DNA from: Daejeonella sp. JGW-45
GTDB taxonomy: Bacteria > Bacteroidota > Bacteroidia > Sphingobacteriales > Sphingobacteriaceae
Assembly (NCBI RefSeq): GCF_029360805.1
Contig: NZ_JARKNC010000010.1
Location: 671,287 to 735,286 of the forward strand
Reading direction: 5' to 3'
DNA: 64,000 bases
Below the pieces are notes generated by a model. It was not told the DNA's origin and searched no databases. It saw only the letters and a program-made list of their open reading frames with translations. The translations under genes and the position numbers were made by a program. Position 1 is the stretch's first letter. Every line of letters starts with the position of its first letter. This document shows, in pieces, positions 55,771 through 58,953 of this stretch.

Positions 55771-55826
55771 CCGATTACCGATTACCGATTACCCATTACC
55801 GATTACCCATTACACATTACCCATCA
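55771..55826 (-). repeat. TAATSGG heptanucleotide array, 8 copies, containing the bactofilin stop
   Basis: Read on the minus strand: TGATGGG, TAATGTG, TAATGGG, TAATCGG, TAATGGG, then TAATCGG three times. The first unit opens with the TGA stop codon of the bactofilin gene, so the array starts exactly at the stop. Every unit holds a TAA or TGA. Confidence 0.95.
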
Positions 55827-56198
55827 CTTAACCGCTACCAGATGCTCAATGGTGGCTTCTTTTGCCATACTGACGGTACCGGTGTAAACAGCACCTTTCT
55901 CTACCTGAAAGGTTTTTGTATGGATCTCGCCAAGAATCTTTCCCGAGCTCTTAATATCGATAGATTCGGCTTTTACAGTTCCGTTCACGGTGCCATAAAC
56001 TACAATTTCCCTGGTGTTAATATTACCTTCAATCAGGCCATCTTCACCGACTATTAAACCCTCTCCAATGAACAGGTCTCCTTTTATATGGCCGTCAATC
56101 CTGACAAAAACGTCAGACTCTATTTTGCCTGTTACGACACAGCCTTTGCTGATAAGAGTAGGTGTTGCCGAAGAGTGTCCGTTCTTTGGATTTGCCAT
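55824..56198 (-). CDS. Bactofilin (polymer-forming cytoskeletal protein)
   Basis: A 124-residue protein built of one bactofilin beta-helix domain (about 17-110). Successive right-handed helix turns are seen: GCVVTGKIESDVFVRIDGHIKGDLFIGEGLIVGEDGLIEGNINTREIVVYGTVNGTVKAESIDIKSSGKILGEI. Bactofilins polymerise without nucleotide and localise cell-wall enzymes. It lies six bases after the M23 peptidase gene on the same strand, a common partnership (as with CcmA and its peptidases in Helicobacter), and 1.1-2.5 kb from the actin-like gene and second bactofilin. Confidence 0.96.
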   Translation of the reverse strand: MANPKNGHSSATPTLISKGCVVTGKIESDVFVRIDGHIKGDLFIGEGLIVGEDGLIEGNINTREIVVYGTVNGTVKAESIDIKSSGKILGEIHTKTFQVEKGAVYTGTVSMAKEATIEHLVAVK

Positions 56199-56204
56199 GG
56201 GTTT

Positions 56205-57053
56205 CTAATTAAAGCTCAGGTAACTTCCGGGGTTGACGGGTTTTCCGTTCTTCCGTACTTCATAATGAAGGTGATTCCCCGTAGAGTGTCCGGTCGATCC
56301 GACCCGCCCTATTACCTGTCCGGTGCTTACCATCTGGCCAGCTTTAACATTTACTTTTGAAAGGTGACCATACAGGGTTTCGAGGTTGTTTTTATGACGT
56401 ATCTTAACGCACTTTCCGTAACCCTGGAACCATCCGGCAATTATGACTTTTCCGTCGGCAGTGCTTTTAACCGCATCGCCCCGGCGCCCTTTAAAATCTA
56501 TGCCCGGGTGGAACTCGACGCGCCCCCGTCTGATCGGGTCGCTCCGGTAACCAAAGCGCGAATTTACCGCAAAATTAGATGGATAGCCTATAGGCGTAAA
56601 GGCTACCCCCGAAAGGATGTCCTCCAGCCGTTCGTTATATAGGGCATAAGTTTCTTCAGGGCTAAGGTCTGTATTGGCGTCGTCATTTCCGCCGATATCA
56701 TTTGTAGCAAATCCTTCAATGCCCCGCTTTCTTAGATACTGGTTTATTTTTTTTAGCTTATTTTCTATATTCTGGATATAGTTCCGGGCCTGGGTAGTGT
56801 CGCTGGCCACAGGTATCTGGCTTTTCAAATGGGCTATCTCACGATGATAAGCCTTTCTTTCCTCATTGATTTTGCTGACTTCAAGAGAAAGAAAAACAAT
56901 GGCAACCGTCAATAAAAGTAAGGTCAGGCATATCGTGAACGCATATTGTCTGATCCTGTTAATATGTTTAGTTTTTATGCGAAGAGACTTGGTTTCCCCC
57001 TTGGTGGTGCCAACAACTAGTACCGTGCTGAAGTCTGATTTAGGAAATATCAT
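56205..57053 (-). CDS. Membrane-anchored M23/LytM peptidase
   Basis: The 282-residue protein from ATG 57053 (a GTG at 57086 is the alternative) has a cytoplasmic N-terminus of about 36 residues, one membrane helix (37-58), a coiled-coil stretch (60-112) and a LytM domain. Zinc ligands HPGID (His182, Asp186) and HLHYE (His261, His263) are complete, so it should be an active DD- or LD-endopeptidase on peptidoglycan. The cytoplasmic tail could bind the bactofilin encoded six bases downstream, as inferred for bactofilin-peptidase pairs elsewhere. Confidence 0.95.
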   Translation of the reverse strand: MIFPKSDFSTVLVVGTTKGETKSLRIKTKHINRIRQYAFTICLTLLLLTVAIVFLSLEVSKINEERKAYHREIAHLKSQIPVASDTTQARNYIQNIENKLKKINQYLRKRGIEGFATNDIGGNDDANTDLSPEETYALYNERLEDILSGVAFTPIGYPSNFAVNSRFGYRSDPIRRGRVEFHPGIDFKGRRGDAVKSTADGKVIIAGWFQGYGKCVKIRHKNNLETLYGHLSKVNVKAGQMVSTGQVIGRVGSTGHSTGNHLHYEVRKNGKPVNPGSYLSFN

Positions 57054-57316
57054 CTTTGAAGTTAAAAAAGAGCCTGGTAGATGCACTTCTAATTACGAAG
57101 CTATGATACTACAATTTATTGTTTTTAAAAAACATTTTATCATTTTAATTGTATGTTTACCCCAATTCAATAATAATATCTATTTTAGGGTTCGGTTGTG
57201 GGAAAAGTCTGCTCAATAGCCTTTGAAAGTGGGGTTGATATTAACTTAATATTGAGACCGGAATATTAAAAATATGTCAAATTAACGTAAAACATACACT
57301 TTAAACTAACCTGATA
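57054..57316. other. Divergent intergenic region of the cytoskeletal cluster
   Basis: About 263 bases separating the M23 start and the actin-like start, AT-rich, with no gene. It must hold promoters in both directions, but no TAnnTTTG box matches well. An in-frame TAA 15 bases before the actin-like ATG excludes an N-terminal extension of that protein. Confidence 0.6.
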
Positions 57317-58333
57317 ATGTTTGCAATTCAGTCTTTTTCAAGCTTAATAGAAAACAGTAACGCCAATTTAAGCAATACGTCAAAGGACCTTTTGAACGGT
57401 TTGAAGATCTTCCACGAAAACCAGTGGTACATCTGTGGGAACCTGGCAATAAATGAAGGCCAGCTGCCACATAAGTTTATTAACTCTTCGCCATCCGACC
57501 TTGATTACCAGCTGCTGGTTAAATCGGCGCTTTTGCTGGTTGCAGACTCTGTTGAACAGCCGATTACCATTACCACCGGGTTTCCATATTCTACATATAG
57601 GATTTATAAAGATATGGCAACCGACTTCCTGAGAAAAACCCATATCATAGAATTTGACGCGTCGACGCACAGCAGCAGTACTAAACGCTCAGTGATCCTG
57701 GATGTTCAGAATGTTGAGGTGATCCCGGAGATCGTTGGATGTACGATCGCTCTTAGAAAGGGCGAACAGCAGGCCGAGGGCAGCTTCTTCGTGCTTAGCT
57801 GTGGTTTCGGAACCTTCGAATCTGTTTTAAGCATGGATTCAGGTATCGTGGAACAAACGATGGTAAGTACCCACGGAATGAAATATGCGGTGAACATGCT
57901 TATAGCTGAACTTGAGAAAACTCACTACCTGGGTTTCAGGAATGCTCATTTAATAGACGAGGCATTCCAGAAAGGTTATATCATTTTGAACAGGAAGAAT
58001 GTTGATCTGAGGGAAATGAGAAAAAATGTGCTTCGTTCTTATTATAACGAAGTGATCTCCCCGAACCTGCGAAACGTAATCAATGACCAGAATTTAATGA
58101 AGACCAACAAGGTCTACCTGTGCGGGGGAGCAATGTACTACCAGGATCTTGTGGATTGCTTTAAAGAGGAGTTTGGCGATGTGGCACAACTTGAGTTTGT
58201 AGCTGAACCGGCAAGCCTCGCCAGTAAAGGATATGCACTGAACTCACTCCGGGTTTCAGGTGGTAAAAAGAATTCGTCCGTAGGCCTGGATATCGGTAAT
58301 GCAACAACAGTAGTAACTACAATAACAGCATGA
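57317..58333 (+). CDS. Actin/ParM-like protein with circularly permuted nucleotide-binding motifs
   Basis: This 338-residue protein follows the ParM/archaeal-actin pattern but out of order. Near the start, FAIQSFSSLIEN resembles the FPS segment that normally follows phosphate-1, then WYICGNLA (37-44) resembles the GelA segment and ITTGFPYSTY (85-94) the GLP segment. The phosphate-2 region is FFVLSCGFGT (157-166) with Ser161 where Asp is usual. The adenosine motif is YLCGGAMYY (267-275), then EPASLASKGYA. The phosphate-1 loop GLDIGNATTVV, which should open the chain, is at 323-333, five residues from the end. No frameshift is evident. It may form filaments with the downstream bactofilin (4-base ATGA overlap). 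Function inferred only. Confidence 0.72.
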   Translation: MFAIQSFSSLIENSNANLSNTSKDLLNGLKIFHENQWYICGNLAINEGQLPHKFINSSPSDLDYQLLVKSALLLVADSVEQPITITTGFPYSTYRIYKDMATDFLRKTHIIEFDASTHSSSTKRSVILDVQNVEVIPEIVGCTIALRKGEQQAEGSFFVLSCGFGTFESVLSMDSGIVEQTMVSTHGMKYAVNMLIAELEKTHYLGFRNAHLIDEAFQKGYIILNRKNVDLREMRKNVLRSYYNEVISPNLRNVINDQNLMKTNKVYLCGGAMYYQDLVDCFKEEFGDVAQLEFVAEPASLASKGYALNSLRVSGGKKNSSVGLDIGNATTVVTTITA

Positions 58334-58953
58334 TCGGAAAGGCGGTAGGTTTTATTCAGAAGTTTCTAGATAAAAAGGACAGCCGGCAGGAGACCATTGC
58401 AGATTTTCATACCACGATCATACGCGTGGATGATAATTTTATTTCATCGAGCTCCATTATCCTTGATGAAGTTTTAGTGGGTAATATTTATTCACTTAAA
58501 GAGGTTATCGTTGCCGGCACAGCCGAAATTTCAGGAAACGTGACATCCCGGATCGCTTCGATCAGCGGGAGGGTTTATGGGGATATCATCTCAATAGATT
58601 ATGCTGACATAAAAAAAACTGCAGTTATTAGCGGGAGTATCCGCGCTAAGTCTATATCCATTGAGCCGGGTGCTATTATAAATGGATCGGTCCGCGTAGA
58701 AGGAGATATTGATGAACGCGATCTCCTTGAAAAAGTTGGGAACAGGCTTCCTTCCAATACTTCCAGGGAGCCTGCTTTTGTTACCTATATACTTCCGGAA
58801 GAAACGGTTAAAGAACCGGGTGTTAAACCCGAGATCAGGCCTGCTGAAATCAATAAGCGGGTTGCTGCGTCTGCCGCTCCGAAAAGCAAGCCGGTTAAAC
58901 CAGCTGAACCTGAAAAGGAAAGCAAAGCGGCTGCACCCAATAGCTGGTATTAA
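58330..58953 (+). CDS. Second bactofilin-domain protein
   Basis: The 207-residue protein has an N-terminal helix (GKAVGFIQKFLDKK), a bactofilin-like beta-helix domain (about 40-130: TIIRVDDNFISSSSIILDEVLVGNIYSLKEVIVAGTAEISGNVTSRIASISGRVYGDI...) and a Lys/Pro/Ala/Glu-rich tail ending in WY, likely disordered. Its ATG overlaps the stop of the actin-like gene, so both are co-translated. It differs from the short bactofilin at 55824 in having long extensions, so the two may hetero-polymerise or serve as core and adapter. Confidence 0.85.
   Translation: MIGKAVGFIQKFLDKKDSRQETIADFHTTIIRVDDNFISSSSIILDEVLVGNIYSLKEVIVAGTAEISGNVTSRIASISGRVYGDIISIDYADIKKTAVISGSIRAKSISIEPGAIINGSVRVEGDIDERDLLEKVGNRLPSNTSREPAFVTYILPEETVKEPGVKPEIRPAEINKRVAASAAPKSKPVKPAEPEKESKAAAPNSWY

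Follow-up and report, generated by a model that had tools for sequence, protein, structure and literature searches.

A natural circular permutation of the actin fold, almost certainly, in a Bacteroidota protein encoded next to bactofilins

Several proteins with an actin fold are available for comparison with the protein described here. Ta0583 of Thermoplasma acidophilum (PDB 2fsj/2fsk) is a filament former of canonical order, with the phosphate-1 motif at the N-terminus. The ParM/Alp proteins are represented by the profiles ALP_N (PF17989) and phrog_691 and by the structures of pCBH ParM (6ixw) and Dh-cParM1 (8x1i), and CorM of Anabaena (PDB 9rmi) is a ParM-like filament protein that was solved with its partner CorR. 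MreB places the same fold in a cell-wall context. To our knowledge, no naturally occurring circular permutation of this fold has been described, and a full-text search of open-access papers found none; a first-pass annotation of the DNA studied here, made from the sequence alone, had likewise known of no actin-fold protein with such an order. Bactofilins form a second, separate point of comparison. The BacA-LmdC pairing of a bactofilin with an M23 peptidase is a widely reported arrangement, and bactofilin-M23 modules have been proven morphogenetic in Hyphomonas (PMC10945521).

The window (the whole 64,000-nucleotide stretch of Daejeonella sp. JGW-45 DNA that was analyzed) encodes an actin-like protein, here termed cpActin (circularly permuted actin-like protein), that is almost certainly a natural circular permutation of the actin fold cut at the β2-β3 turn. 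The gene and the parts of its product are:

57317..58333, + strand: cpActin coding sequence, 338 aa (ORF, alignment and model)
57302..57304, + strand: in-frame TAA, 15 bases 5' of the cpActin ATG at 57317 (the stop-to-stop frame has 342 codons)
57320..57352, + strand: residues 2-12, FAIQSFSSLIE, the canonical β3/FPS segment, now the N-terminus (alignment)
57728..57730, + strand: Glu138, invariant in 52/52 homologues (BiP alignment, VIPEIVGC with INEPTAAA)
57794..57814, + strand: phosphate-2 loop LSCGFGT, residues 160-166, with Ser161 at the Asp position (sequence and alignment)
58121..58141, + strand: adenosine loop CGGAMYY, residues 269-275 (aligned in homologues with the adenosine region of MreB and of BiP)
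58256..58276, + strand: residues 314-320, short linker from the canonical C-terminal helix to the canonical N-terminal β1 (DSSP of the model)
58277..58330, + strand: residues 321-338, β1-β2 hairpin, the canonical N-terminus placed at the C-terminus (alignment and model)

The length and coordinates of the reading frame given by the first-pass annotation proved exact, and the in-frame stop codon that it placed 15 bases before the ATG was found; this stop excludes a hidden N-terminal extension. All of the actin-fold motifs that it listed were located, in canonical order save one: FSSL (residues 7-10), CGNLA (40-44) and TGFPYSTY (87-94) precede the phosphate-2 and adenosine loops, and the phosphate-1 motif GLDIGNATT (323-331) lies within the C-terminal hairpin. 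This order is kept in 52 of 52 aligned homologues. G323, D325, G327 and N328, all near the C-terminus, are invariant across the same 52 proteins, none of which has a G/A-x-D-x-G motif within its first 60 residues or a second, N-terminal phosphate-1 motif. The segment that now opens the chain was aligned to pCBH ParM from residue ~25-28 on, and homologues read FPSVIE here. Other invariant positions are GFP 88-90, E138 (which we take to be the position of the catalytic Glu in MreB, ParM and Hsp70), G163/G165/E168 and G270/G271. The serine that the earlier annotation had seen in place of the phosphate-2 Asp was also confirmed; this position is Ser in 46 homologues, Asn in three, Gly in three and Asp in none, so the serine at 161 belongs to the family as a whole rather than being a local mutation.

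Further evidence for the cut came from profiles of relatives with the canonical order, which were scored against natural sequences and against copies in which the last ~20 residues had been placed in front. With Pfam ALP_N (the N-terminal domain of actin-like proteins; cut-off 26.3 bits), nine of 10 natural cpActin sequences scored 34-54 bits, the tenth, below the cut-off, being the window protein itself. The match in these nine began only at profile position 16-21. After permutation, scores over the nine were 36.0-64.8 bits and the match started at position 1 in eight, with gains of +10.5, +3.7, +8.1, +9.8, +9.4, +5.2, +9.9 and +8.1 bits. The remaining sequence, L015, carries a long C-terminal tail; it gained only +1.1 bits and its match still started at position 15. 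The whole-length ParM-like profile phrog_691 behaved similarly: natural sequences started at profile positions 26-45 and permuted copies at 6, with scores rising from 82.2 to 96.0, 97.2 to 108.1, 67.1 to 72.4 and 66.1 to 74.2 bits (+13.8, +10.9, +5.3 and +8.1). The canonical ParM/Alp profiles begin about 16-25 positions ahead of cpActin starts. When a canonical-order profile was searched against 395 Bacteroidota genomes, each main body was matched from position ~8-23 on, and in seven genomes a second match, from position 2 to 21-29, lay directly downstream of the body; this search turned up no protein of canonical order in the 395 genomes. ALP_N matched 11 proteins in 296 Bacteroidota genomes, all of them cpActin family members. 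The C-terminal segment also aligns to the N-termini of Hsp70/BiP/DnaK: in profile A1, residues 315-338 align to BiP 17-40, and residues 97-178 and 249-287 align farther along BiP.

Divergence keeps the window protein itself from scoring in these tests: it missed ALP_N and phrog_691 in either order and reached only 18.3 bits, below the cut-off, against MreB-like_C. The case for its own permutation therefore rests on homologues, which are 37-93% identical and aligned end to end (the 93% being to the D. lutea DSM 22385 protein). Single-sequence PDB searches with the window protein and L021, natural or permuted, gave nothing useful, and when one set of nine sequences was used as a profile against the PDB, the natural and permuted orders scored almost alike (pCBH ParM, 31.8 versus 33.1 bits). 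Rotating the family profile through all possible cut points and matching it to MreB, DnaK and FtsA of this genome was uninformative and gave no support for the cut: weak local matches (≤ ~12 bits) dominated, the expected site did not stand out, and the total had its minimum near residue 281, with another low value around the expected site. Weak Pfam matches to an astrovirus capsid and eRF1 were dismissed as noise.

The AlphaFold2 model of the window protein (36 sequences; pLDDT 93.3, pTM 0.92) has the two-domain actin (ASKHA) fold, with the phosphate-1, phosphate-2 and adenosine motifs all present but not in the ASKHA order of phosphate-1, phosphate-2, adenosine, phosphate-1 being last in 52/52. 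DSSP assigns strands to residues 2-8 at the N-terminus and to 321-326 and 330-336 at the C-terminus, a predicted layout that fits a chain nicked at the β2-β3 turn. Foldseek matched the model best to Ta0583 (E 2.4e-14), pCBH ParM (E 4.9e-14) and CorM, and also to Dh-cParM1, MreB and Hsp70, with TM-scores of ~0.7 that come from sequential alignment only; CorM ranked high for the Odoribacter cpActin as well. Ta0583 was also the best match of the Odoribacter cpActin model (E 2.9e-15), so that it is the nearest fold for both (sequential TM 0.62-0.73) and shares the motif set; in the Odoribacter model the linker joining the old ends is longer (~311-340, pLDDT 61-75). The permutation proposed in the first-pass annotation thus withstood both structure prediction, which returned an actin-like fold, and comparison with Bacteroidota homologues, and it gained the support of canonical-order profiles that place the C-terminal segment ahead of residue 1. 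Its fixation across part of Bacteroidota shows that the actin fold can be re-cut at the β2-β3 turn with its nucleotide motifs kept, and the permutation gives the chain its free ends at a different site.

Within the same family, 10 of 101 genomes had a homologue; the figure was 24 of 395 for sampled Bacteroidota genomes, nine of 164 for one other order and 31 of 245 for one other class. These samples overlap and the tallies count the query genomes too. Carriers include Daejeonella spp., a Sphingobacteriales MAG and Odoribacter sp. Z80, and some genomes of 65% GC have two copies. No relatives were found in viral contigs, phages, plasmids or a defence library. The host genome carries a separate MreB (G000:C7:209952, E 6.8e-130), distinct from cpActin, and cpActin homologues match MreB_Mbl over the adenosine region only, below the cut-off.

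Both bactofilins found in the host genome flank cpActin; among 70 sampled Bacteroidota genomes, 51 have a bactofilin, mostly in single copy. The neighboring features in the window are:

58330..58953, + strand: bactofilin, its start overlapping the stop of cpActin (ATGA), with a long tail ending SWY (Pfam Bactofilin, E 4.3e-15)
58942..58950, + strand: C-terminal Ser-Trp-Tyr of this bactofilin (sequence)
56205..57086, - strand: M23 peptidase, divergent from cpActin (Pfam Peptidase_M23, E 1.4e-37)
55824..56198, - strand: second bactofilin, lacking the aromatic tail and adjoining the M23 peptidase (Pfam Bactofilin, E 4.6e-23)

The overlap of the cpActin stop and bactofilin start is seen in Daejeonella, where the operon is conserved and a bactofilin likewise lies next to the M23 peptidase. 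The locus contains the same pair as the BacA-LmdC module but, unlike it, adds cpActin and a second, aromatic-tailed bactofilin in divergent orientation. An imperfect 16-base inverted repeat (57143-57158 and 57290-57305) between the divergent M23 and cpActin genes may be a chance product of AT-rich DNA.

Of 54 loci, a set that includes close relatives, 41 have a bactofilin in the vicinity of cpActin; 37 were identified by ORF calls and four by reading frames, and about one-quarter of loci have no adjacent bactofilin. At L075, L076, L111 and L118 the linked bactofilin apparently has a start codon other than ATG and escaped ORF calling restricted to ATG. In the cpActin tree, which still scored the four frame-read loci as unlinked, bactofilin-linked loci occur on both sides of the midpoint root and linkage changes state six times, against a mean of 16.5 after shuffling; the pairing therefore probably arose early and was lost several times. 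Fewer loci have the M23 peptidase close by; they belong to Daejeonella and its relatives and to some members of another family.

The bactofilins directly downstream of cpActin share an unusual ending. An aromatic residue occupies one of the last two positions in 32/32 proteins (Trp in 30) and in 19/19 clusters at 50% identity, with endings that include SWY, GWW, RFW, IEW and NIW; examples are at L050, L058, L065, L102 and L112. Unlinked Bacteroidota bactofilins have an aromatic end in two of 28 cases and Trp in none, a difference (Fisher p 5e-15) that ignores shared ancestry and is descriptive, since the trait was spotted and tested on the same linked set. The four frame-read bactofilins, found afterwards, all end LW, providing a small independent check. 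Sampled cpActin genomes without a directly linked bactofilin have ordinary bactofilins only, with no Trp tail. The simplest reading of the aromatic tail is that it would serve as a docking peptide for cpActin, a hypothesis to which we give slightly less than an even chance.

Collectively, these observations make it fairly likely that cpActin is a permuted ParM/Alp-like actin that binds nucleotide, probably forms filaments, and is partnered with bactofilin in envelope morphogenesis. The β1-β2 hairpin with its phosphate-1 loop, moved from the N- to the C-terminus by the cut at the β2-β3 turn and tied to the old C-terminal helix by the short linker, would most likely complete the same nucleotide pocket, as judged from the model. 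With no variation at Glu138, at the phosphate-1 Asp or at the two adenosine glycines, nucleotide binding is likely, with ATP or GTP as the probable ligand. Hydrolysis is uncertain, and would probably be slowed or altered because the phosphate-2 Asp is Ser, Asn or Gly throughout the family. Assembly of cpActin into filaments is somewhat more probable than not. The genomic linkage is observed; in most lineages joint function with the bactofilin encoded directly downstream is likely, and it may involve cpActin gripping the aromatic C-terminal tail of that bactofilin. A nucleotide-controlled filament would thereby be coupled to a bactofilin scaffold and, in Daejeonella, also to an M23 cell-wall endopeptidase at the inner membrane. 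The conserved pairing, which the first-pass annotation had not noticed, suggests that the actin-like and bactofilin cytoskeletons are physically coupled, and it sets cpActin apart from Ta0583, which is not bactofilin-linked, and from CorM, whose partner is CorR.

The same tail and the same missing Asp bear on a different function, that of a non-polymerizing nucleotide switch or adaptor, comparable to FtsA or PilM, that merely recruits bactofilin via its C-terminal peptide. A conserved aromatic end on the partner resembles peptide docking of the kind by which the C-terminal tail of FtsZ docks on FtsA, and loss of the phosphate-2 Asp in 52/52 homologues would suit a switch; however, the closest structures (ParM, CorM and Ta0583) are filament formers, and although fold likeness does not prove polymerization, we regard an adaptor as unlikely, if a serious contender. 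It is improbable that the permuted actin segregates DNA or positions the chromosome, as ParM or chromosomal ParM-like proteins do, with bactofilin as the scaffold of the segregation system. The nearest folds and profiles are those of ParM/Alp segregation proteins (phrog_691 'partition protein', PRTRC_D and ParM PRK13917), and bactofilins organize ParABS in Myxococcus xanthus (Lin et al. 2017, as cited in PMC10945521). Against this, cpActin is chromosomal, with no match in plasmids, phages or viral contigs, and an M23 peptidase adjoins it in Daejeonella and a few other lineages. In addition, the directly linked gene is a bactofilin and not a small DNA-binding ParR-like gene. Ordinary gene annotation of the window locus recognized no ParR-like adaptor. 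Within the preferred reading of a bactofilin-partnered filament, a donor-hairpin exchange seems highly improbable; here each hairpin would dock into a neighboring molecule, so that two subunits together complete the nucleotide pocket at the filament interface, under the control of the aromatic bactofilin tail. An unpermuted protein that lacks its canonical N-terminus and carries a C-terminal GxDxGN by chance or as an unrelated motif is scarcely credible, for although the window protein on its own gives nearly no profile match, the motif is invariant in 52/52, canonical profiles gain with the segment in front, the segment aligns to Hsp70 N-termini and the models are confident.

Some loci depart from the arrangement in the window. 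In one family (L067, L068 and L070) the order is M23 peptidase, cpActin, TPR protein, bactofilin without an aromatic tail, and an AtpZ-like gene. A paralogous cpActin group without bactofilin neighbors (L053-L057) has an acidic C-terminal tail with a recurring hydrophobic end motif (SAFLE/SEFLE/VFMEE), which may be another docking peptide. The cpActin at L112 (1363-2748, - strand) has ~120 additional residues, for a total of 461 aa, at least partly as an N-terminal extension.
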